This document shows positions 3,909 to 46,180 of a stretch of DNA of 64,000 bases, in pieces (the stretch's first letter is position 1; the number at the start of each line of letters is the position of its first letter). This DNA is from Eutreptiella sp. 'Long Island Sound 2002'. Lineage: Eukaryota; Euglenozoa; Euglenophyceae; Eutreptiales; Eutreptiaceae. The stretch lies in contig OZ038394.1 of assembly GCA_964036045.1 (NCBI GenBank), positions 2,521,379 through 2,585,378 on the forward strand. Reading direction: 5' to 3'. The notes under the pieces were generated by a model. The model was not told the origin of the DNA. It searched no databases and was given only the letters and a program-made list of their open reading frames with translations. The position numbers and the translations under genes were made by a program.

Positions 3909-4481
3909 CACCCAATCAAAACGGAGCCGGAGGAGGAGTCAACCGCGCCAACGGATCCACCGCAGAAGCCGGAGGCAGCCAAGGAAGAGAGCGCTGGGGC
4001 GCCGAAGAGGGATGCGGAGATGGGAGAGGAGCCCCCGGAGGAAGCCGCAGCGGCGGGAGAGGAGATGGAGGAGAAGGACGAGATAGTGCAGATTTAGTAA
4101 GTCGGGCCAACCTAAGTTGGAGCAGCCCAGGCAGCATTTTTTCAAACACACAGTTTTCGGATGCGGATGAGTGGCCCGACCCCGATGAGGTCCGCGGCAG
4201 ACAAACCTCACAACCCCTCTTCTTTTCAAGGCCAGTGCCGTTGGCACAGCAAGCACATTCACAGCCAACCCCACAGTGGTGGCATCGGTAGGCGGCGCTT
4301 CCATTGGGGCACCGACGCCGGTATTTATTGCGTTGTGAATACTTTTTCGACGTTCGGATGAATGGTGGCGGCTGCGGCCACTGCTCTGCGTGGACCATGT
4401 AGGGTGCACGGACACCGTTTCAAGAAAGCAACAATTGACTTGTTCGTGTTGCCGCCCCCATTGCCCCATCCCCTGTCTTGC

Positions 4482-7796: not shown

Positions 7797-7970
7797 ATGA
7801 AAACGGGCTATTAATCCGTTTTCCACAATGAAAACGGGCTGTAAGCTGCCTGCGGTTAGGCAAGTGGCATCCGAGTTCCTTTGTCATAAGTGCTCCTGAG
7901 AGATCAATGCGTGGCGTCCTTTGCGATGGCAGCATTGTGTCTTTTGTGTGATGTGTAATGCTCCCTACCA
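7797..7970 (+). pseudogene. PHD-finger element (copy f), left half
   Basis: It opens with AAAACGGGCTATTAATCCG-type palindromes, then runs straight into the 3' part of the HTH+PHD gene. VRQVASEF, CHKCS, then VFCVMCNAPYH match the gene at 26481-27029. A TGA replaces CGA after CHKCS. The gene is interrupted after the His codon of CNAPYH by E2 and resumes at 14965. Confidence 0.7.
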
Positions 7971-7989
7971 TTGTAACTGCTAAGATCTG
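7971..7989 (+). repeat. E2 left TIR
   Basis: TTGTAACTGCTAAGATCTG, followed by TTCACATAG and the first ACGCGTACGTG motif. Confidence 0.85.
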
Positions 7990-8435
7990 TTCACATAGAC
8001 GCGTACGTGTTGAAATCTCAACACGTACGCGTTGGTTTTTTCTTTGTTGCAAATTTGTCATTTTTCATGGAAAATTCATGTGTGGGGTATCACCTTACCC
8101 GACTCAACCCCTCTTTGCACTTCCCCTATACCACTGGGTGCCACTGCAAACATTGCCGACCGTAGGTCGCCTTCTCCCTCTGCAGAGTGTCCCAAAAACG
8201 ATACTGAATTTCCCAAAACCTTGCTTTCAGATTGTCCTCTGACGCGTGCGTGTTGGAAGTGCAACGCGTACGCGTTGGGTGCGTGGCGCGTACGTGTTGG
8301 TGTTTCGACGCGTACGCGTTAGTAACTTAACACGTACACGTTGAAACAGCAACGCGTACGTGTTAGATTACCGACGCGTACGCGTTGATCTGCTGGTGCG
8401 TACGCAGTTCGTACGCACCGCCTACGTGTTATGTG
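7990..8435. repeat. ACGCGTACGCGT palindrome cluster 1 (E2)
   Basis: About ten copies of ACG(C/T)GTACG(C/T)GT(TG) in two groups (7999-8035 and 8241-8430), separated by 200 bp of non-repetitive DNA. Each motif contains three or four CpGs and is near-palindromic. Confidence 0.8.
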
Positions 8436-8700
8436 GTATGGCAGCTGGTTGGTCTAGAGGTATGTGCATGTTCCTTGCGTTTCGGAACCCTGGGTTCGAA
8501 CCCTTGCATACGCACTGTGTGTGCACCTTAGGATGAGGACACACAAGACCAGGAGGAGAGGGAAGATCGTGAGACGAGCAACCGCAAGACCAGGGGCCCA
8601 CAAAGGAGGTGGATCCAGCCGAAGAGGCGATGAGGAGATGCTTGCCGAAGACCTACCTAGTGGGGCAACCAACAAACACAGGCGCTGAAGACAGGCATTG
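8433..8700 (+). repeat. tRNA-derived SINE-like sequence
   Basis: A pol III A-box-like TGGCAGCTGGTTGG (8440-8453) and a B box GGTTCGAACCC (8493-8503) lie 40 bp apart, as in tRNA-derived SINEs. The downstream body is unique here. No cloverleaf with good acceptor pairing is seen, so this is not a functional tRNA. Confidence 0.55.
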
Positions 8701-8881
8701 AAATGTGATCACCAGCTGCCCTTGGTTTTTTTAGTAATAAGGCCTACCGAGGGCTGGTCTGTTGTGGCTGCCCCAGCGTGGGCTGGGCTGGTCTTGTTGG
8801 AGCCACCAACCCTGTGTCGGAGGCTGTTCGACGACGAGGTGGCTGGTGCTGGGCTGGAGCTATTGTTGGAGTTGGCCAGGC

Positions 8882-8942
8882 CAGGGTTCGAACCAAGGAG
8901 CCCTGCCGCCGGAGTCTACGCCCATAACCACTCATCCACAGA
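8882..8942 (-). repeat. tRNA-like SINE head (minus strand)
   Basis: On the minus strand TGGATGAGTGGTTATGGGCG (A box region) is followed by CTTGGTTCGAACCC (B box), resembling a Ser/Leu-type tRNA. The body probably extends towards 8700. It lies inside E2, next to the previous SINE. Confidence 0.55.
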
Positions 8943-9109
8943 CGAACGTTGCTCAGTTTGGTCGCTCCCTCCCTTGCAAAGCACATCACTGCACCAAAAC
9001 ACCATGTTGAATGCAATGTGCATTGAAGACGTAGTATACTTGCCCAAAGCAATTCAATGGAATCCCAAATCAAATATCATACACAAGAGCTGAAACACCA
9101 TACAGACTG

Positions 9110-10798
9110 CTAAGGCGCGTTGGCCTTCCAATACGTTTTGTGTTCCTTCACGTGTGGTTGTTGTGTCCATGCACGCACCCATACATCCCACCCCCTCTTT
9201 AACAAACCCCAATCCACATTATCATTTTTTACAACTTCCCTCCACCCTTTCACGAAAACTTGCCTCACCAGTCTACCTCTCCGTCCCCGTACCCCCCCTT
9301 TTACTTTCCTTGCCCCCCCCTTGAAGCTCCTAAACCGAATCTCTGTTTTCAGAGTCTTGTGCCTTTCTTCTGCCTTGAAGGCAGCAAAGGCGCCAAGGGC
9401 ATGCCACTGCTTAGCATACCCAAGCATGTGGTCAACCCAAAGGTGCACCCACAGGGTTTGCCCCAGCTGGCACCTTTTGTGATGCACTGCCATTTGGGGT
9501 AGCACATTTTTTAGGGTGTCAATCTCTTGGGCTCCTAACAGCCCCTCCTTTTTGGCAATGGTTGCACTTTTGTGCAGACAGTCCCACCACGAATCAAAAT
9601 TTTGCGCCCAAGTGTGACCCCCTTCCACGACATGTTGCAAGAGACCTTCATTGTTCAGCCCTACAATGAGGGGACCCCAGGCCTTTGTCGAAACAAATAG
9701 AATTGCTGCGCTGTGTTCACAACGGAGTGACGGTTTGTCACCCGCCTGCCTTGCGATGTCTTGCGGTGCAACACTGTGTGAGGCAACCCTGCAAGGATTT
9801 ACATGGGTCTGCACCCATGTAATAGCGCGTCTCTTCGTGAAGCGATGGTGCTGTACAAGAGCCCTCCAGCATCCATCAAGGCCACTGTGGGTTACACGTG
9901 TGACCCCATGCAATGCATAGTCAGGAGGCCTGTACTTGGGCACAATGCTACGTAGCACCTGCCCGTGCCAGGTCCAGTGTGACAGAATGGGTGCAAGTCC
10001 CTTTCCAAAGTCGCGATCGCAATGTGCCCTGCATTTGCCGCATACCCAGCACACTGGGTCCACACTGGTGCAGTTCCATCTTTTGATGCCTGCCATTGCC
10101 TGTTGTGCAACGACATCTGCAACCAGGAAAATATGGGGTTTTTCCATGTAACCCCCTTGTACCTCATACCTTGTGTTTAGGGCCTCTTGCAACTGCTCAT
10201 CCATTTTGCTAACCCTTGTGAGCGATCGCAGCACAGCACGTTTTTCAAAGCCGTGCAAAATGCACCAGCTACCAAGCGGGTTGCCCGATCCAAGCACTCC
10301 AAGCATAAAATGCTCGAAGTGCCGCTTGTGTAGTTGTGTACCATCCACACATAGGCGTACCCATAGGTCCGGGTACAAATTTCCCTTACGGGCGGCCATC
10401 ATGAGTCCCAGCTTCTCCCTCAAATTTGTACCGGCCCCCAGCAATGTGTGGTCCCCGTCCATTGCATTGTAGTCCACTACTGGTGGTGCACTAAGTTCCT
10501 CCTTCACACGTCTGATTTCATTAAGGGGGCATTTGATCCTGGACGTAGGGATGGAGCACTGGAGGGCCCCCCAGCTTTTGCCCTCTTTGCGGCAATCCCA
10601 CAGGAGGGCCTCGGCATGCCACATCTGGTTTTTGGGCATGGGCCCTTCCGTCGTTTTCAAAATGAGGGTGCCCACGTTTTCGCCAGCTTGCACTTGCCAG
10701 GTTGGGCCAAGAATTTCTGTGACTGCCGTTTGCAGTTCGGCCATCCGTTCCCATCTCTTAGTCCTTCCCAGCTGTTGGTACTCCTTGAACGGGGGCAT
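9110..10798 (-). CDS. Transposase-like protein of E2 (intact)
   Basis: An uninterrupted frame of 562 codons from ATG 10798. An upstream in-frame ATG at 10888 would add 30 residues encoded by poly(C)/poly(T) DNA, so I prefer 10798. Counted from 10888, visible motifs are LCVDGTQLHK (Asp182), FLVADVVAQQ (Asp258), a Cys cluster CWVCGKCRAHC (280-290), DYALHGVTRV, LWVHLWVDHM and KAEERHKTLK (Glu507/508). The last four are shared with the copies at 1-1022 and 44.5-45.9 kb. Two Asp and a late Glu in this spacing suggest an RNase H-like DDE transposase, and the basic C terminus could bind DNA. It is the last gene of E2 in the coding direction, bounded by palindrome clusters. I cannot assign a superfamily; KDZ or another cut-and-paste lineage is possible. 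Confidence 0.65.
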   Translation of the reverse strand: MPPFKEYQQLGRTKRWERMAELQTAVTEILGPTWQVQAGENVGTLILKTTEGPMPKNQMWHAEALLWDCRKEGKSWGALQCSIPTSRIKCPLNEIRRVKEELSAPPVVDYNAMDGDHTLLGAGTNLREKLGLMMAARKGNLYPDLWVRLCVDGTQLHKRHFEHFMLGVLGSGNPLGSWCILHGFEKRAVLRSLTRVSKMDEQLQEALNTRYEVQGGYMEKPHIFLVADVVAQQAMAGIKRWNCTSVDPVCWVCGKCRAHCDRDFGKGLAPILSHWTWHGQVLRSIVPKYRPPDYALHGVTRVTHSGLDGCWRALVQHHRFTKRRAITWVQTHVNPCRVASHSVAPQDIARQAGDKPSLRCEHSAAILFVSTKAWGPLIVGLNNEGLLQHVVEGGHTWAQNFDSWWDCLHKSATIAKKEGLLGAQEIDTLKNVLPQMAVHHKRCQLGQTLWVHLWVDHMLGYAKQWHALGAFAAFKAEERHKTLKTEIRFRSFKGGARKVKGGVRGRRGRLVRQVFVKGWREVVKNDNVDWGLLKRGWDVWVRAWTQQPHVKEHKTYWKANAP

Positions 10799-10889
10799 GT
10801 TCCTTGAGGTGAAAAAAAAAACCCTAGGGAAAGACAACAAGGGGGGGGGGTGCATGGACACAACAAGCTTCACACGTATAGGCAACATG

Positions 10890-11125
10890 CAACACGTACG
10901 TCTGCGCGTACGAGCCGCGTACGCGTTCCATTCTTAATGCGTACGTTCCACAACACCGAATCGTATGTTTCATGAACCCAACGCGTACGCGCCAGAACAG
11001 CGAATCGTACGCGTCATGACCCCAGCGCGTACGCGCCACCACAGCAACGCGTACAATGCAACACCGTAACGCGTACGCACCACGTACGCCAGCGCGTACG
11101 CGCCCCTGCCACAACGCGCGCGTGT
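10890..11125. repeat. ACGCGTACGCGT palindrome cluster 2 (E2)
   Basis: About ten variants of AACGCGTACGCG, roughly 20-30 bp apart, between the transposase-like gene and dioxygenase B. It covers the likely promoter of the former. Confidence 0.75.
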
Positions 11126-11173
11126 TGACGCACACTTCACCCATCAATCATTAGTGCACAATGCATGCACATG

Positions 11174-12293
11174 CTACCCGGCACATAGCCGGAACCCAAG
11201 ACTGCGCAGCAGTACGAGGTCCTCCCAGGACACCTTGCCGAGACCGACCTGGGTAAAAAACACCAGTGCGTAGCGCTCACCACGCCACGGCGCTGGCATG
11301 TGCAAAGCACCACTGCAAAAGACAACCCCATTCCGGGCATCCAATGCCACCCAATCCTCATCCACTCTGTCTTGGCCCTCTGGCCCTGCAACACATGCCA
11401 TTGTGTAGGGACGGGTTCCCTTTGTGGGGAACATGAGCCCCGCCTCTTCCACACAAAACTCCCCACCTGAAAAATCACCAACAGCCACAATGGCACTCAA
11501 GGGCAAGTGGTCCTGGTGCTTGTGCCCTGGCATAGTGCTTGAAGGGGAAATACCATGGTTCACTTGGACGGCAGTCCAAGTGAACCACGATGGCAACCGT
11601 GCGCGCCCGTAGGCGTTGATGGCCCGGCACACCTTCGGGAAGTTGCGTGTTGCAACCGCCACCCGGACATTGCCACGCTGCACCACCCCAAACATCGCGG
11701 AACGCAATCGTACTCCCCACCTGTCCTTGGACTACCACGCCCCCCCATCCAACCCCTCCAACAAACCCCGCCACCCCTGACCACCGAACACGCTTGGCCT
11801 GCTTGAGCTGCCCTCCCTGCACACCCCATGTCTGCACGTAACTGTGGCTGTCACCTTTGATCTGGTACAAAGTCCCCCCAATAAAAACTGCTGCAGGGTC
11901 CCTGCCAACGGCATGGCCCTTCATCCACATGGGAAAGCGGACCATCATGGGCTCAAGCCATGAGACCACACCACTGTCTTCCTTTACCTTTGCCTACAAC
12001 GTAACCTGATCAAAAAAACTATACTTGGCAACATCCCCAACATGGACGTTGTCCACCACATCCTCCTTACTCACCTGCACCAGCTGCCCTGCAATTGTCC
12101 CTATCGACTCAGGGTCCGGGGCAACCAAGGGAGCGCCTGGGGGGCTCTGAAGAAGCCCCTTCGGCTTCAGCGCCTTCCGGCCCGCATCCGGAGGCGTCGG
12201 GTGCACTTTTGCTTCAGAGGGCCAAGGGCGCCGCTCCTTGTACTTGAAGGGGGTGACGTTCAACTGCAAGAGGCAAGCGTAGAGACACGTCAA
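11174..12293 (-). pseudogene. 2OG-Fe(II) dioxygenase-like gene B of E2
   Basis: The N-terminal frame from 12293 crosses one TAG (at about 11996) into a stretch ending near 11650, then shifts to the frame ending at 11174. The last part has the hallmarks of a double-stranded beta-helix dioxygenase. FTWTAVQVNH precedes an HxD metal motif (KHQDHLPLS), followed by IVAVGDFSGGEF. A distal His (ALHMPAPWRG) is followed by an Arg and a beta strand (ERYALVFF), where the family binds 2-oxoglutarate. This GDxxGGE arrangement resembles algal and fungal hydroxylase-like proteins, some of which act on DNA or RNA bases; the substrate here is unknown. No ATG is seen at the 5' end (12291-12293 is TTG). A 13-bp-arm hairpin at 11557-11586 lies in the coding part. 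The gene is probably dead in this copy. Confidence 0.65.
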
Positions 12294-12302
12294 TTATGAA
12301 AC

Positions 12303-12545
12303 AACACGTGCGGGCAGCGCACGCAAGACGTACGCGTTGGTACATTAGCGCGTACGATCTACTTGGGCAACACGTACGTGCTGGTACGTCAACGCGTACG
12401 AGGCGATCGGGCAACGCGTACGTGTTGCTACCCCAACACGTACGATCTGTGTGGCCTACGCGTACGTGTTGGCAGGTCAACACGTACGCACCAAAAACGT
12501 AACGCGTACGAGGCACTTGCACAACACGTACGCGGTGCGTACGTG
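12303..12545. repeat. ACGCGTACGCGT palindrome cluster 3 (E2)
   Basis: Ten or so ACGCGTACG motifs at irregular spacing between dioxygenases A and B. Confidence 0.75.
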
Positions 12546-14623
12546 CCACATGCGCAAGAAATGCATACCTCCCCATAATTATCACAATGGTCCATGCACC
12601 CACATGAGTACGCCATTCCGCCCGTCGCCGTCGGCCGCTGCACCACCCAGTTCTGCTCCACCGCCTCCGCAACACTAGCGGGCGCCACATGCAGGGCATG
12701 CCCCATGGCTGCCCACTCCATCCATTCCGGCCCATCCTCATCCCGCCTCAACACGTAACCACACGTGGCAAACGTGAACACCAACGAACCTTTCTCAACC
12801 GTAAACCGTGTCCCGCCGTCAAAACTTGCCTTTGGGAGGTACCAACGGTGAAACCGGGCCAAGGGACATCGTGGCTCCTAGGGGCCGGGGGGGCACTTAA
12901 AAAAGAAAGTTGCACCTTGCACACCATGGCCCAAAATCACAACGTCACCACAATAGGGGATAGCTTGCCGTCGCCGAACAAGCAACGGAGCCGAAAAATG
13001 GGTAAAAGATTCCCAAGGGATAGCAACACCTTTGGCACCTTTCAGAAATTGAACCATAGGAGGAAGGGCATACAATTGGCGAGCAAGATGCACCTTTGAC
13101 ATGGTGGCAGCATGCTCCAAAGGGACAAACGGGATGAACAAAGTGTAGCGCCCCTTCTCCCCACCACCCGCCCCGCGATGAAAGGTGCAACCTTTTAAAA
13201 GAAGGATGTCACCCAATTCCATGGAACACACATCTCAACGATTGGACTCATGTTGCCCAACCTGATGTGAACCCACTCCAACTTGCAAAGCACACTCGGG
13301 AGGAACATTGTCCAAGGGAATAAAGACTTGGATGCAATCCTTCATCCAAGGTGGACCCATAAGGTTGTGATCCGAATGGACCAACTGATACCCATCCCAT
13401 GGGGCGCATGGGGTACAATGTAGCAATTTCATATCCACGGGTTTCAACGCACTCCACTCAACACCCTCAATGCGCGTCACCGCACCCAACACTTGCATGC
13501 GCAACTCCTCGGGCAACCATTTCGACGACCGTTTTGTTTGCTTCCGAATCACGTTGGCACTTGCATAAGTGTCATCTTCCAACGTAATCACCTCCCAATC
13601 ACGGGGGGCAATGTCAACGTTTAAAATGGCTTCGCCAATAACAGCATCAAACGAATGCCGTTCAATGAAATAACCGGCATGTGCAAACCCATGCACATTT
13701 TCAACGGGTGCGTCCGGAAGCAATTGGTTTGAGGGCAAGGGCATATCACAAAAAAATGGTGTGGGTGCACCGTAACCCAATGCAAAAACTTCTGCTGCGG
13801 TTGCATACACATACGGCGTTGAGCAATCGGGGTGGTAATTTACCGAAAGGGGTGGGGGCACGCATTGAATGGGGCCATGCTCATTCCATTCATCCGATGC
13901 ACAACCCATGTACCGCACAAAGGAGTCCGTGCGACAAATGCTATCCACCTCACTGGCAACGGGATTGGGGAAAAGGGTACCATCATTGAGCACCGCATAT
14001 TTGTGGGTAAGGGTCTTGGCAACTCTCTTACGCAAGGACGCATTCATAGTTGTGAAAAGTGCGTCACGCTCACCAACACTCAAACTAATGGAAACCATGA
14101 GCAAACGCTCACCCACAAACTCATACAAAGCAGCAGGGAGAAGGGTGTGGGGCATTGCATCAGCATTGGGCCATGCAAGAACGGAACGACTATCAACAAC
14201 AGCAATAACACCTAGTGCTTGCGCATTCACATCCAAAAGCAAAAGATCTTGCCATGAACTTGGCAATTCCGGGAGACCCTTAATGTCTTCCTCACCCAAC
14301 GCTAAACGAACAACAACAACACCATGAACACCGTGAGCAAGATCTCCTGCCTCACGAGTGTCCGTGAACCAACGCTCCACCGATTCATCCTCCTCCAACA
14401 ACCCAACCTCCAAGGCCCGCTTCACAATCTCCGCGGGCCTATTGCCTTCGGCCACCACCTCATCCTCCTCCTCCACCTCCTCCTCCAAATCCACGTCTCC
14501 CTCCACCACGTCTTGACCCACACTTGTCCTTGGCGCCCTCTTTGCCACGGCCCCGGCGTCGGCGGCAGGCATGGAGACCTTCCTCGCCACCTTCTTCTTC
14601 GCCGGTTTTTTCTTGCCGGGCAT
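12428..14623 (-). pseudogene. Phytanoyl-CoA-dioxygenase-like (2OG-Fe) gene A of E2
   Basis: One frame runs from ATG 14623 to about 12428 with only two in-frame stops (TGA at 13235, TAG at 12878). The N terminus MPGKKKPAKKKVARK looks like a nuclear localisation signal, followed by an acidic stretch. HSD at residues 416-418 is the HxD iron site. Then come IQVFIPLDN and ALQVGVGSHQ, the PhyH-type pattern, and after the TGA, GDILLLKGCTFHRGAG with the distal His and GRYTLFIPF with the 2OG-binding Arg. The TGA follows CGT and could come from CGA by CpG deamination. The last 40 codons run into cluster 3, so the true C terminus is uncertain. The substrate is unknown; nuclear targeting and the transposon setting favour DNA or chromatin. 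Confidence 0.7.
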
Positions 14624-14727
14624 GTGTGCGGAAAAGCACTAAGGAAAGGAAAACAGACATGAAGCAAAGTAAAAGTTTTTCTTTGTCACGTCAAAAGGAG
14701 CACAATTCAACCGCCAGTACTGCAGAC

Positions 14728-14932
14728 AGCGTACGGGCACCATAGGCAGCGCGCACGCGTTGCGATCTGAGTGCGTACGCGCTAAAATACCAACGCGCAC
14801 GCGCCAAAATACCAGCGCGTACGCACTCAGAACACAACGCGTACACACTCAGATCGCAACGCGTACGCGCTGGTTCGCTGGTTCATGCGCGTTACAAAAT
14901 CAGTGCGTACGATAACGCGTACGCATACATGT
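14728..14932. repeat. ACGCGTACGCGT palindrome cluster 4 (E2, right subterminal)
   Basis: About eight motifs (ACGCGTACGCGC, ATACCAACGCGCACGCG and variants), the last one 14 bp from the right TIR. It mirrors cluster 1. Confidence 0.8.
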
Positions 14933-14945
14933 GAACAAAATGAGG

Positions 14946-14964
14946 CAGATCTTAGCAGTTACAA
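14946..14964 (-). repeat. E2 right TIR
   Basis: Exact inverse of 7971-7989. Confidence 0.85.
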
Positions 14965-15500
14965 CGAAGCTTGTATGGGCCAGGGTGCCAAAGATGGCTC
15001 CATGCGTGGCCCTTGTTGCCCCAAGGAGTAGATCAGAATTATTGTACACTATTATTAATAATGTACACTCGGATCCAAAGGACAAATCAAAACAAACTAA
15101 CATTATACTATATTATTATAAACGCTAATCAAAGGTGTCCACTCGAAACTAGCCTGTATAGTGTATGTACAGTGGAGGCGTTTTTCCTCATGCCGGTGGT
15201 AGGGTTTCTTATCACGTCATCCAACATTTCACATGCGGTACTTTCTTTTGCCTTGCCTCTCCTCCATGTGTCAACTGGAACCTGCACCGGTCGCCGGGTG
15301 GTTTGCACAAGTGTCCCAACTAACGTCGGTCTGATTCCCCCGTTTTTCAGCCAAATAAAACGGGCTATAATATCCCGTTTTTAGGAAAAACGGGCTATTA
15401 ACCCGTTTTCCTCAATGAAAACGGGCTGTAAAAGGTGCTTCGCTCCGGGGGCGCCGAGTTTTCAGGCCGATAAATGTTAGATGGGAACGATTATGTAATC
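14965..15500 (+). pseudogene. PHD-finger element (copy f), right half
   Basis: The gene resumes with EAC, then GAKDGSMRGPCCPKE and TAG at 15029. The 3' UTR (ATTGTACACTATTATTAATAAT onwards) is nearly identical to 28950-29340 (+) and 26150-26500 (-). The element ends in AAAACGGG(C/T)TATTAACCCG palindromes at 15340-15430. A GATAAATGTTAGATGGG fragment at 15471 belongs to the copy-d repeat family. Confidence 0.7.
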
Positions 15501-26060: not shown

Positions 26061-27176
26061 TATTATGAAAACGGCCTATTAAACCGTTTTCCTCAATGAA
26101 AACGGGTTAATAGCCCGTTTTCCCTAAAAACGGGTTATTATAGCCCGTTTTATTTGGCTGAAAAACGGGTTAACCAGACCAACGTTAGGTTCTTGGGACA
26201 CTTGTGCAAACCTCCCGGCGACCGGTGCAGGTTCCAGTTGACACATGGAGGAGAGGCAAGGCAAAAGAAAGTACCGCATGTGAAATGTTGGATGACGTGA
26301 TAAAAAACCCTACCACTGGCATGGGGAAAAACGCCTCCACTGTACATACACGAGACAGGATAGTTTCGAGTGGACACCTTTGATTAGCGTTTATAATAAT
26401 ATAGTATAATGTTAGTCTGTTTTGATTTGTCCTTTGGATCCGAGTGTACATTATTAATAATAGTGCACAATAATTATGATCTACTCCTTGGGGCAACAAG
26501 GGCCACGCATGGAGCCATCTTTGGCACCCTCGCCAATGCAAGCTTCATGGTACGGAGCATTACACATCACACAAAAGACATCATGCTGCCGTCGCAAAGG
26601 ACACCACACATTGATCTTTCGGGAGCACTTATGACAAATGAACTCGGATGCCACTTGCCTAACCGCAGGCGGACACTTTGGTCGCCGCATCTTTTGGAAA
26701 GGCATTGGCATATCTGAGAGATCTTGGGAAATGGGAGCATTAGCTGCGGTGGGAGGTGCATCCCTATACTCTTCGCGACTATCCTCCAAAGAGTGCTTCA
26801 GGGACGCCTGTGTGAAGGGTCGCTCGTCATAGTCCCACACCGACTCACTAGACTCACTTCTACCACCAGCAAGCAATTCAACAGAGCCACCTGATTGGGA
26901 GGATGTCACACTAAGCTTTGCAGGGCTCGAATCGGCCACGGGAGCAGGGTGAGGAGGAGCCTCCACCGGTTCACGGCTCAAATCGGCCACGGGAGCAGGG
27001 TGAGGAGGAGCCTCCACCCATAAGCCCATAAAATTTGGGGTTAACCCGTTTCTTTCCAGAAAAACGGGTTAATAGCCCGTTTTCATTGAGGAAAACGGGT
27101 TAACCCCTGCCAAAGCTGTGGTCAGGTTAACCCGTTTTTCAGCCAAATAAAACAGGCTATTAACCCGTTTTTTATT
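26061..27176 (-). mobile_element. PHD-finger element (copy c)
   Basis: About 1.1 kb flanked on both sides by arrays of AAAACGGGTTAATAGCCCG-type palindromes (26065-26170 and 27040-27176), with one PHD gene on the minus strand. The 3' non-coding part is shared with copies e and f. Confidence 0.65.
26481..27029 (-). CDS. PHD-type zinc-finger protein (copy c), lacks the HTH
   Basis: 182 codons from ATG 27029. It opens with two tandem copies of VEAPPHPAPVAD (a 51-bp DNA repeat at 26925-27015). The conserved block follows (WDYDERPFTQASLKHSLED, then EYRDAPPTAA and DMPMPF), then a Cys/His region: CHKCSRKINVWCPL, CVMCNAPYHEAC and GPCCPKE. Spacing resembles a PHD finger with an altered last pair. The N-terminal HTH of copy b is absent because the palindrome array starts immediately upstream, so the gene may be 5' truncated. 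Uninterrupted otherwise. Confidence 0.6.
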   Translation of the reverse strand: MGLWVEAPPHPAPVADLSREPVEAPPHPAPVADSSPAKLSVTSSQSGGSVELLAGGRSESSESVWDYDERPFTQASLKHSLEDSREEYRDAPPTAANAPISQDLSDMPMPFQKMRRPKCPPAVRQVASEFICHKCSRKINVWCPLRRQHDVFCVMCNAPYHEACIGEGAKDGSMRGPCCPKE

Positions 27177-28623: not shown

Positions 28624-28755
28624 CAGGATTGGACTATGTTCAAACAGGTGGACGATCCTGTGTGAACATACATGTCTAAACAGGCATGTGATCCTGTATG
28701 AACGTATGCGTTTTTGCAAAAAAAACTTGCTAAAATTTTAGAGTGGGCACTTACA
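28624..28755. other. AAACAGGAT repeat-word segment
   Basis: TTCAAACAGG, GATCCTGTGTGAACAT and GATCCTGTATGAACGT words in both orientations, as at 25920-26000. No gene. Confidence 0.4.
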
Positions 28756-29421
28756 AAAGTTTCCGCCTGCGGTTAGGCAAGTGGCATCCGAGTTCATTTG
28801 TCATAAGTGCTCCTGAGAGATCAATGTGTGGTGTCCTTTGCGACGGCAGCATGATGTCTTTTGTGTGATGTGTAATGCTCCCTACCATGAAGCTTGCATT
28901 GGCGAGGGTGCCAAAGATGGCTCCATGCGTGGCCCTTGTTGCCCCAAGCAGTAGATCATAATTATTGTACACTATTATTAATAATGTACACTCGGATCCA
29001 AAGGACAAATCAAAACAAACTAACATTATACTATATTATTATAAACGCTAATCAAAGGTGTCCACTCGAAACTATCCTGTCTCGTGTATGTACAGTGGAG
29101 GCGTTTTTCCCCATGCCGGTGGTAGGGTTTCTTATCACGTCATCCAACATTTCACATGCGGTACTTTCTTTTGCCTTGCCTCTCCTCCATGTGTCAACTG
29201 GAACCTGCACCGGTCGCCGGGTGGTTTGCACAAGTGTCCCAACTAACCTCGGTCTGATTTCCCCGTTTTTCAGCCAAATAAAACGGGCTATAATAACCCG
29301 TTTTTAGGAAAAACGGGCTATTAACCCGTTTTCCTCAATGAAAACGGGCTGTAAAAGGTGCTTACGCACCTTTTACAGCCCGTTTTCATTGAGGAAAACG
29401 GGTTAATAGCCTGTTTTTATA
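28756..29421 (+). mobile_element. PHD-finger element fragment (copy e)
   Basis: It begins within the gene, without its left palindrome array. The last 60 or so codons of the PHD gene (28765-28954, one TGA where copy c has CGA) are followed by the family 3' UTR and right-end palindromes. It provides the empty-site sequence for the E2 insertion in copy f (CCTACCATGAAGC at 28881). Confidence 0.7.
29309..29421. repeat. 113-bp near-perfect hairpin
   Basis: Arms of about 54 bp with one mismatch around a 4-nt TTAC loop at 29364-29367. Each arm contains two AAAACGGG(C/T) palindrome units. This looks like two right ends of the copy c/e/f family joined head to head. Confidence 0.8.
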
Positions 29422-36115: not shown

Positions 36116-37950
36116 GCTCTGTCCTTGCCAAGGGGCGCCCGGCACGGGGAGTGCGGTCTCAAGGCTGAAAGTCGGAGAAATTGATGAAATGGCAGCACAA
36201 TGCCTGGGGTATGCGGGCTAATTTGGCTCAACATGGGGAATGTTACCAGGTCATGACTGAGGTGGAGGTTGATAGATTAATTCTAGATAGATAGATAGAT
36301 TGGTTCTTGATCCTCTGGACGGTTGTGCATGGCCGCTCCTGATTGGTGGATTGATTTGTCTGGTTGATTCCGTCAACAAGTGAGACCTCTGCCTCTGAAT
36401 ACAGGGGGGTACTTTAGTATGGGAAAATCTCTGTCTAGAAAGTAGTCTCTGTATTAAGGCCAATTCTGGCGCAATTTTTCTCACATTTTTATGATTGTGG
36501 TGCAGTTTTCCCTATACTTCCATTTTCGAGACAGAATTTTTCCTGACTAGCCCCCCTCCCCCCCCCGCCCGCATAGTTTTTCTGAACCCTCCCCCTTCAC
36601 CCTCAACCCAACAGGTGGCAACCAACCCACCTATCCACAAATTGATTATTCCCTCCTCACAAGGCGCACGTACGTACACCTGAAAGTACCAACCGGCATA
36701 TTTTATGGTAACCCCCAGCCCCCTGTAGTCCTCAACCTCGGATTCAAAACGGCGGAACACATGTCCACTCTGGGTTGGCTTGCTGTCCCACTGGGGCTCA
36801 TGCACATCTCACCCAAGAGCGCTGGGGATGCTACTTCTCTCACGTGCCACACATGCCTGCCAAATGCTGTCGTGTGACCATCATCATCAACTGCCACTGA
36901 GCGAGCAGACAGACTTCATAACAAAAAGAAGTTTGCGTGGTTTGCGTGCACTTGAAGGTGGTCGGCGGCTGGAGCCAACTGGTGTCTTTACGTTTCGGGC
37001 ACATTTGAGTTGCCCCTGCCAGAGCCTGAGATGAGCCCCAAGCTCTGCCATGCTGCACATGCCTATTCCCATTGGCTACACCACATGCTTCGCATCCGAT
37101 CAGGGTGGCTGGTGAATGAATTTGGGAGCTCTGGTGGTTGTCTTTGTTGCTCTGTTCAATGCTCAGCCACCATGCTCAACCCCCCCCCCCCCCAAATCAG
37201 GGGCCGATTTCCCCGATTGGCCTCAATTTTGTGCCCCAATTTGTTGGATTCCTGGCCCTGTTAATAATTGACAGTACTTAGTGTACTGTCAATTCGGATT
37301 CCGATTCGGATTCTGGAATTCTCAGGAAGGGGAGCAGAATCATAGCATTGCCAAGGTCCATAACTGAAGTGCTGGTCTGTTTGAGGTGTTTGACAAAACA
37401 CCCCTCAATTCCGAGTAGGGTCATGCCATGTTCCCCATCCAATCACCTCACCCTCAGACAGGGAATTCTCACTGCCTCCTTCACCTGTGCACAGTCGCTC
37501 CCCTGTGCACAGGACAAGTCCCCCAGTGCATTCCTGCTTGGCACCCACGATGTATGGGCCAAGGCAGCCCGTGATATTTTGGGGGCTGGGACATGTCTTC
37601 GAGCTGTACTTTACAAAAGACATTGTGGATGATAGTTTTGTTCCCCAGGCCGCGTCATGTTTGTGTTCCTTGTTACGTGTTTGTTTGTGTTCCTTGCAGG
37701 CAGTGACAGATCTTGCACCTTCTGCAAACACATCTTTCTGCTACAACCAGTGCAATTGCAACGACCACCGCAACTGCTATGACTAGTGTCAACGGTGATG
37801 CCAACAACCGTATTCCTGAATGGGCAAAATAACTTTGCAGATGGGATTGCTGTGTGTATGCATCTTGTTTGTTGTTGTGGCAGGCTTTGTTTGTGCAGGG
37901 AAAACAATCAGCAGGCTAGGCTGACTACTTTAAGGCAGGTGATGAAATGC
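36116..37950. other. Intergenic
   Basis: No gene recognised. It holds a short (GATA)n-like run at 36285-36300, poly(C) at 36550 and 37180-37195, and several GATTCCGATTCGGATTC-like words near 37295. ORFs below 110 codons show no domain. Confidence 0.4.
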
Positions 37951-44499: not shown

Positions 44500-45906
44500 G
44501 CTTGGTGATGGCCGTTTAGCGGATCCGCTCCTTGCACCTCTCTGGGACGGAGGCGTTGTACCCGGTGGGGCAGATGACGTACCGTGTGGTATGGGAAGAG
44601 GTGTATGGCATGCTCCGAAAGCTGGCATCACCAGAGTCCTGGGCGTTCACCGCCTATACGGGTGACAACACGGCCATCCATGCAACGGCCTGCTACCTCC
44701 CGCCCGCATCGAGTAGCCTTACAAATGTCGACCACCCCCACCATCGGACATCATGCTGCTTGGAGACCGACGGCTGCATTGGCTACCTATTGCTGTGGAT
44801 GGTACATCGAGGCATAAGGCCTCGTACGTCCTTTGCACACAGAGTGGCACTATCAGCCCCTACCAACTATCCAGCCGGTGGCTACAAGGGGGCAGTGAAA
44901 AATTGGAGAACCCGTACGCGGCCTCCCAAGAAACAAATTTTGATGATGAGTTGCGCAAGGCCGCAACCGTAAGTTTCAGGGACAAAGGAGGAGTGATAGG
45001 TCGTCGCTTTTCTTGTTGTGTGCAGATGGGAAAGCACAGGTGCTCAGGGGGGGCTGCGAAAACTGGAAGGCAGAATCGCTTGGAGCAACGGTGTGTTGGA
45101 TGCCGCAAGTGCAATGGAGGTGGATTGGCAACCCGTTGTAGCCATAGGTTCTATATTTAGGACTATTACGGGGCATACACGGATACACGATTGCCTGATT
45201 ATGGCCTCCACGGGGTCCTCCGTGTCCTATTATGCGGCATCAATGGGACACGGGACGTGGTTGTACAATTGACAGGGAAGGCACCCGCCACTGTTGCACA
45301 AACCATCTTGCAACCAATTTTGGATGAGGGACGGCTTGCTGCAAAAACTTGCACCCGTGCCTCCTTGCACAATGAGAAGGCGGACAACAAAGGGAAGGTA
45401 AGGATGGAGTGTGTTGCTGCCGTACACTTCATGTGGAACAAGGGATGGGAAAAGGTGGTTGATGCTTGCCTGCAACACCCCAATCTAGGGCAACATCAAG
45501 TAGCAAGGAAAAGTTGGGGGTCGGTGTGCAAAACCTGGTAGGAGAATTCTGCAAGCATGTGTGTGTTCGCTGGGCGTTCCGCATGGTTCTCCGGGGCCGA
45601 CTTGGGGCGGCTCCGGAGACATAGCGTAGCCATGGGCACTGCCCATGATGTGCTCTACTGGGGCAAAATTCTGTGGGCGCATCTTTGGATCGACCACATG
45701 TATTTTTTTTGCAAAGAAGTAGAATCTTGTCAAAGTTCTCTTGCTTTGCCATGAAGCGGAGTCAACGAAGGTTGAAGCGCATGTTGTGCAACAGCGGGGG
45801 CCTAAGCCTCCTCCAAGGGAGGCTAGGGGTGCAAGTGGTTGTGGACAACCACACCATTGATGATAGCCTGGCAGCGCATGGGTGGGATGCGACCAAAAGG
45901 GCATAG
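44500..45906 (+). pseudogene. Transposase-like gene (E3 copy)
   Basis: Homologous to 1-1022 and 9110-10798. IAVDGTSRHK at 44795 corresponds to CVDGTQLHK, CADGKAQVL at 45020 to the second Asp, then DYGLHGVLRV, LWIDHM and a C-terminal KRSQRRLK. The Glu of the last motif (EGSHRRLK in E1) is Lys here. At least three frame changes and an in-frame TAG at 45539, where E1 has TGG, make it non-functional. It fixes the 5' half of the E1/E3 protein that is missing at the start of the window. Confidence 0.7.
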
Positions 45907-46139
45907 CATGGGCAAGGACCCATCAGTGTACAAAGGTTAGTGAGCTGTACGAGAAGACGGCTTCTAACCAACATGCAACACCTTCAGACCTTAGAGAGGC
46001 AGTTCCGATGCTGCAAGAAAAGGATGTGAGAGCGTAACACGGACAAGGGCCATGGTTGTCAGTGGCTGGGGTGCATGCAAGGGTGCACGGGGTGCGTAGT
46101 CCGGGTGTTTGAGCAACGATGGGGCGGGGTTGGACTGAA

Positions 46140-46180
46140 ATGCAGGCAAATTTGTACGATATTCGTACGAATTCGTCGGC
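46140..46180. repeat. TTCGTACGAA-type cluster 4 (E3)
   Basis: TTGTACGATATTCGTACGAA followed by TTCGTCGG, at the same place as the cluster after the E1 gene. Confidence 0.6.

Follow-up and report, generated by a model that had tools for sequence, protein, structure and literature searches.

We analysed a window of 64,000 nucleotides from the euglenophyte Eutreptiella sp. 'Long Island Sound 2002' (contig OZ038394.1, positions 2,521,379 to 2,585,378 of GenBank assembly GCA_964036045.1, which comprises 2.28 Gb in 2205 contigs, the longest seen being 201 Mb). At 7972-14963 it carries a transposon of 6992 bp with a transposase-like gene, an oxygenase-like gene and arrays of the palindrome CGTACG, inserted in a repeat that is found empty at 28.88 kb. 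The ends of the element, TGTAAC...GTTACA, form terminal inverted repeats (TIRs; TGTAACTGCTAAGATCTG), the left one at 7972-7989 on the plus strand and the right one at 14946-14963 on the minus strand. A first-pass annotation of this DNA had described them as perfect and 19 bp long; perfect they are, but the TIR proper has 18 bp, the nineteenth base coming from the target-site duplication. That duplication is an unstranded 2-bp feature, AT at 7970-7971 on the left, as judged from the window, the empty site and other copies, and AC at 14964-14965 on the right, one base off both the left copy and the empty site, so that one base has mutated. The empty site at 28.88 kb, proposed as a homologue in the first-pass annotation, is borne out by its flanks (124 nt matching at 95% and 300 nt at 96%) and by direct reading: it is CTACCATGAAGC, the filled site being CTACCAT[element]ACGAAGC. 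TIRs, target duplication and empty site are all present, as in a cut-and-paste DNA transposon. The flanking repeat occurs three times in the window (26193-26682, 28753-29242, and 7848-7971 together with 14966-15319), with one copy inverted, and the other two copies are without the element.

The transposase-like gene occupies 9110-10798 on the minus strand, reading from 10798 to 9110, and its open reading frame (ORF) of 562 residues is intact, as had been claimed; it is 96% identical to a database protein with 79 member sequences (P0002). Remoter relatives are P0006 (38%) and P0007 (43%), both on 2-kb contigs. The motifs CVDGT, FLVAD, CxxC and AFKAEERH start at residues 150, 224, 250 and 473, and from inspection of the motifs the series D...D...CxxC...E may be read as a D-D-E pattern; CVDG, FLVAD, CxxC and a late E are visible in the alignment of P0002 to P0007, some rows of which are partial or changed. 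The window ORF, P0002, P0006 and P0007 match nothing in Pfam at an E limit of 10, and the ORF has no significant match in NCBIfam or the PDB. Pfam includes a model of the KDZ transposases, and membership of that group was rejected since no model matched. We could not assign the transposon to a named family.

Upstream on the same strand lies the oxygenase-like gene, which had been described as two dioxygenase genes. The motifs on which that description relied are present by inspection; the two coding stretches, which join in frame, are probably exons of one gene. Exon 1 (12569-14623, minus strand, 685 codons) has an acidic N-terminus, a PhyH-like domain with the motifs YQLVHSDHN...CTFHRGAGGG and a Cys-rich end. 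It is followed by a predicted GT-AG intron of 305 bp (12264-12568, minus strand) that contains eleven CGTACG cores, and by exon 2 (11174-12263, minus strand), composed of an N-terminal domain of no known type, a coiled coil that is deleted in the window copy, and a domain with the pattern HxD...GDFSGGEF...H...R. The case for one gene is that the splice sites are good (5' GGGGAG|GTATGC and 3' CCTCTTGCAG|TTGAAC, both found in the window, L036 and L057-L060), that the joined frame is open and that exon 2 by itself lacks an early ATG in frame. In the copy L057 the joined exons give 1097 codons in frame, one TGA, and then 210 codons to the stop of the second domain. The product would have about 1300 residues, with two signatures of the 2-oxoglutarate (2OG)-Fe(II) type and the coiled coil between them.

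To place this copy in its family, the left 490 bp were used as a query against the host assembly and the best 40 of 427 first-look candidates were scored, that is, the window copy and 39 others with 97-98% identity over the left end. The right end was sought in all 39 over stretches of unequal length: measured from the left end, these reached about 7290 bp in 6 copies and covered 6700-8200 bp in 20 and only 7300-7700 bp in 13, among which shorter forms would be missed. Five of the 39 have the full form, of 7542 bp (L057, L058, L059, L060 and L074). Three shorter copies have both ends (L036 with 6990 bp, L075 with 6852 bp and L076 with 6772 bp), as does L033, a deletion derivative of 1734 bp; in the remaining 30 the right end was not found in the stretch read. 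Eight of the nine copies with both ends read have identical 2-bp target duplications (CA in L057 and L076, AT in L058 and L060, GA in L059, AC in L036, TT in L074 and L075), the exception being L033, with GT on the left, TA on the right and an altered right terminal base. L033 has lost both genes, and keeps the TIRs (apart from that terminal base), all 10 cores of the 3'-end array and four of those of the 5'-end array, at 99.3-99.9% identity to the full form.

The transposon family is young, high-copy and recently active. That it moved recently follows from the near-identity, at about 99%, of full copies on four chromosomes: L057-L060 are pairwise 99.05-99.59% identical, and L074 matches L057 at 99.3%. 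The window copy matches L057-L060 and L036 at 97.3-97.9%. Being 550 bp shorter than the full form, it is not the complete transposon that it had been taken for; it is a deletion derivative whose transposase is intact and whose oxygenase-like gene is broken, exon 1 being stopped at 13235 and 12878 and exon 2 at 11994 and 11732, with a deletion junction near 11765. A homopolymer frameshift was also considered for exon 2 and was rejected because the relatives reveal the deletion junction there.

In the wider family the gene fares better. Four of the five full-length copies (L057, L058, L059 and L074) have all four frames open, with 752, 422, 210 and 679 codons from stop to stop, and are interrupted only by a single TGA common to the family; L060 is frame-shifted in exon 2. 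Exon 1 is open in all five and corresponds to an open database protein of 731 residues with 52 member sequences, and the only copies without the genes are deletion derivatives such as L033. With the ratios of nonsynonymous to synonymous changes (N/S) below neutral that are given below, this indicates that the oxygenase-like gene is a regular part of the family and no accident of the locus. The TGA lies in the linker between the coiled coil, which the full form retains, and the second domain, and it is present in all seven copies that keep the linker (L057, L058, L059, L060, L074, L075 and L076). Beyond it, all seven have an uninterrupted second-domain frame, of 210 or 234 codons, and the database relatives P0052 and P0066 continue through the corresponding place. 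In L057, at about 3930-3946 on the gene strand, the TGA falls inside a perfect 7-bp inverted repeat, TGGGAGT-TG-ACTCCCA, which recurs at the same place in the other six copies; the stop is followed by C, a context in which stops are known to be leaky.

The element contains 36 copies of CGTACG, whereas 300 shuffles gave 0.95 on average and never more than 5. The arrays, too, are part of the transposon itself, and eight other long copies have 36-39 sites each. Six of the cores form the 5'-end array (14730-14932), eleven lie in the intron, ten between the oxygenase-like gene and the transposase (10895-11136) and nine in the 3'-end array (7999-8440), all of these being exact and unstranded, and none lies in exon 1, exon 2 or the transposase. 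The first-pass annotation had likewise placed arrays at both ends and in both gaps; the 12-mer ACGCGTACGCGT that it gave as their unit is exact only at 8264, 8308 and 8374, the constant unit being the CGTACG core on a lattice of 22 and 11 bp. Among the 116 pairs of cores within 150 bp of each other, 78 are spaced by multiples of 22, 23 by 22n+11, 9 by 22n+1 and 6 by 22n+12; the two end arrays share this lattice. The absence of cores from coding sequence is not in itself surprising, because about one would be expected; the filling of the non-coding parts is. All 36 cores being outside coding sequence, the element has one short motif in arrays confined to non-coding DNA, as described for VANDAL transposons and their VANC proteins. 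Observed CpG is 1.5-1.9 times the expected number in the arrays, compared with 0.71 times over the window as a whole and 0.5 times in the transposase. Cooperative binding along one face of the DNA would require just such a spacing, of one or two helical turns between sites of the lattice. Between the gap array and the ATG of the transposase there is a pyrimidine tract with CCCTAG.

The assignment as an oxygenase is a candidate one, based on motifs, on mild purifying selection and on a match to a PhyH-type enzyme that falls below threshold. By inspection, exon 1 has YQLVHSDHN and CTFHRGAGGG and the second domain HKHQDH, GDFSGGEF and GALHMPAPWRGER, which we take to be 2OG-Fe(II) oxygenase signatures; both domains have HxD and a distal His. 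When a profile of five exon-1 relatives was searched against the PDB, 13 sequences were listed, of which 10 were FtmOx1 (verruculogen synthase) and 3 were antibody chains. FtmOx1, a PhyH-type 2OG-Fe(II) oxygenase, is the sole enzyme in the list, and its histidine aligns with the distal His of exon 1, at an E value of 0.72-1.0 that is not significant. As exon 1 does not match the PhyH family of Pfam, the label 'PhyH-like' from the first-pass annotation has nothing beyond this match behind it, and membership of the TET/JBP or AlkB groups, which it also mentions, finds no support in Pfam. The Tet_JBP model did not match the second domain (E limit 10, with the HMMER filters dropping most matches above about 0.1), and a profile of six second-domain relatives retrieved from the PDB one unrelated sequence (E 2.5) and no TET. 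The missing Tet_JBP match does not exclude a TET/JBP relationship, because the account of fungal transposons cited below (PMC12730594) reports a divergent type for which only a structure-based search (HHpred E 1.4 to CMD1) revealed the resemblance. Compared with each other by profile, the two domains have no detectable homology (probability 0.4%). A Pfam match of exon 1 to 53BP1-Tudor (E 0.0096-0.046, below its own cut-off and weak in the PDB too) was dismissed as chance. The second domain also has a distant copy in P0065, a database protein of 559 residues with 19 member sequences (31% identity over 44% of the query), whose N-terminal half is unrelated and which possibly belongs to another mobile element with such a domain; a scan of IMG/VR for P0065 and a tblastn search of phages with P0025 found none.

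Selection was assessed by N/S over nine copies. The lowest ratio among the parts tested is that of the second oxygenase core (14 synonymous and 12 nonsynonymous changes, ratio 0.32, p=0.003), the whole second oxygenase part giving 14 and 16 with one stop (0.45, p=0.023). Exon 1 has 28 and 45 changes with three stops (0.60, p=0.023), its PhyH part 7 and 10 with one stop (0.53, p=0.15), and the N-terminal part of exon 2 a ratio of 0.84 (p=0.33). Leaving out the window copy gives 9 and 9 for the core (0.37, p=0.031), 24 and 35 with one stop for exon 1 (0.52, p=0.012) and 6 and 6 for the PhyH part (0.34, p=0.058), and earlier counts over five and six copies gave 0.46 and 0.58 for exon 1 and 0.44 and 0.41 for the second oxygenase part. 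The tests favour constraint on the oxygenase-like parts, including the part beyond the TGA.

The same copies were used to look for traces of CpG methylation. In coding sequence of the nine copies, C>T changes are found at 35 of 4302 CpG sites against 54 of 21716 other C/G sites (odds ratio 3.29, p=3e-7), and singletons alone give an odds ratio of 2.48 (p=0.001). This excess is as expected if the host methylates CpG, and the element is likely so methylated. In the arrays the counts are 23 of 2862 against 17 of 3733 (1.77, p=0.08; singletons 1.61, p=0.26), the limits of the arrays being set differently in this nine-copy count. Six copies had given 26 of 2923 against 48 of 14760 in coding sequence and 21 of 1986 against 32 of 2871 in the arrays, suggesting that array CpGs are protected from C>T change; this was not upheld by the nine copies or by 30 left ends, a sample biased to the copies most like the left end of the window copy, in which the excess in coding sequence is 1.9-fold over all sites (p=0.16) and 4.5-fold over singletons (p=0.007), the array giving 1.0-fold (p=1) and 2.7-fold (p=0.18).

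Taken together, we propose that the full form is an autonomous transposon encoding a self-recognising oxygenase, in which the arrays address the enzyme to the element's own copies, probably against silencing; we give this tentative reading a probability of about 0.4. A protein of the element would bind the arrays cooperatively on one face of the DNA, the oxygenase would thereby act on the element's own copies, and the likeliest purpose would be to undo or evade CpG-based silencing of promoters and ends, as VANC proteins do on VANDAL arrays. Were there only terminal arrays, the transposase could be what they serve; those in the intron and the gap call for a further role.

Several observations weigh against this proposal. 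No curated family matches either oxygenase-like domain: Pfam yields no oxygenase family, and PHROGs, NCBIfam and the PDB, searched alongside it, no significant oxygenase match. In the search that listed FtmOx1 below threshold, an unrelated antibody chain scored better, at 0.0052. The motifs are not uniform among relatives, P0024 having a residue other than Arg at the 2OG-binding Arg position and the distant P0065 lacking a clean HxD, and the AlphaFold models, built from shallow alignments (mean pLDDT, the predicted local distance difference test, of 27.6 and 33.0), say nothing either way. In five of the seven copies that keep the linker (L057, L058, L059, L074 and L075) the TGA parts frames of 422 and 210 codons, L060 and L076 having a further shift in exon 2, and since the second domain lies beyond this break in the frame, it may not be made in the amplified lineage. 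The selection tests rest on few changes, ignore the relatedness of copies, are uncorrected for the several that were run and use hand-set limits for the core; the transposase is not significantly constrained in them (ratio 0.71, p=0.12). Finally, array CpGs do not have clearly fewer C>T changes than coding CpGs in the six-copy, 30-end or nine-copy counts.

Of the alternatives, the one that survives best holds that the arrays bind only the transposase, as subterminal and internal repeats in the manner of En/Spm, and that the oxygenase-like protein has a function unconnected with the arrays, for example on chromatin proteins of the host or on RNA. CACTA elements are a familiar case of subterminal repeats to which a transposon protein binds, and the gene-less L033, at 1.7 kb, has kept its TIRs (one terminal base aside), the 3'-end array and part of the 5'-end array; arrays on the same lattice also stand in the intron and the gap, where transposition would need no sites, and we consider this explanation somewhat unlikely. 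A stronger version of our own proposal goes further, in that a single spliced two-domain oxygenase would dock in register on the helically phased lattice and oxidise the methylated CpGs there, as a self-addressed demethylase outside the known TET/JBP sequence families. The TGA between the domains would limit how much of the full enzyme is made, and we regard this version as unlikely. Less likely again is that the captured gene supplies one working oxygenase, the PhyH-like exon 1, while the second domain decays past a stop that has become fixed, and the arrays act in the promoter or in splicing: the TGA in seven of seven linkers and the open exon 1 in five of five full-length copies would agree with it, but the part past the stop has the lowest N/S of all and an open frame in all seven copies. 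That the signatures are a matter of chance, the second gene encoding an acidic, Cys-rich, coiled-coil accessory protein that binds the arrays like VANC or TnpA without enzymatic activity, gains from the lack of a significant oxygenase match in any family or fold search, and is nevertheless improbable given two separate HxD...H motif sets, a distal His in exon 1 that aligns with a His of FtmOx1, and a second motif-bearing domain whose core is the most constrained part of all.

Known systems offer partial parallels to the self-recognising oxygenase that we favour. En/Spm (CACTA) elements have target duplications of 2-3 bp and subterminal repeats bound by TnpA; the present element resembles them in its short repeated motifs near the ends, and differs in ending TG...CA instead of CACTA, in having no Pfam transposase match and in its internal arrays. 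Orchid Ty3/Gypsy elements reportedly carry an AlkB-type m6A demethylase domain, and are thus mobile elements that have gained a 2OG-type demethylase, as this one has an oxygenase-like gene; they are retrotransposons, however, and the domain there is a recognised one. VANDALs, in turn, are a different group of transposons from the family described here. In Arabidopsis, VANC proteins are reported to bind tandem motifs in non-coding regions of VANDAL elements and to induce loss of methylation (PMC10398659). The present element shares with this account the tandem arrays of a short motif in non-coding regions and a second element-encoded protein, a layout that suggests self-recognition; the likeness is one of layout, and VANC is not described as an oxygenase in the parts of that account bearing on it (PMC10398659). 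In fungi, TET/JBP genes are described as riding on many lineages of DNA transposons, with frames mostly kept open, and are thought to counter silencing by methylation (Kojima 2025, PMC12730594). Here too a gene of 2OG-oxygenase type stands beside a transposase; unlike the fungal elements as outlined in that source, the domains match no TET/JBP model, what is probably a single gene has two of them, and Pfam has no family that the transposase matches. Searches of the open-access literature, with most subscription papers outside their reach, listed nothing closer to such an element.

The element would join the layout of VANDALs with the concept of the TET-carrying transposons of fungi, resembling each in part. 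Transposon-borne oxygenases are reported from fungi and self-targeting arrays from VANDALs, and their combination would link an enzyme and its address in one mobile unit. Self-targeting is directly testable, because full copies have diverged by about 1% or less and the 52-member exon-1 cluster suggests many open copies. Such a system could also provide a naturally occurring module for acting on DNA at a short palindrome of choice.

The window has other recognisable sequences as well. An ORF at 4497-5687 matches DDE_Tnp_1_7 (PF13843, E 1.2e-10), a piggyBac-type transposase, and another at 21930-22610 matches the reverse transcriptase family RVT_1 (E 4.6e-10) and forms part of a retroelement. 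A eukaryotic 18S rRNA fragment at 36219-36533 (model positions 1191-1488 of 1831) is perhaps a piece of a pseudogene. Another array with an 11-bp period, on the palindrome core TTCGTACGAA, lies at 1150-1210, just past a repeat at 70-1128 that recurs at 45008-46031 (80-88%), with a similar motif near 46164; a second transposon family in this host genome may use the same lattice idea.

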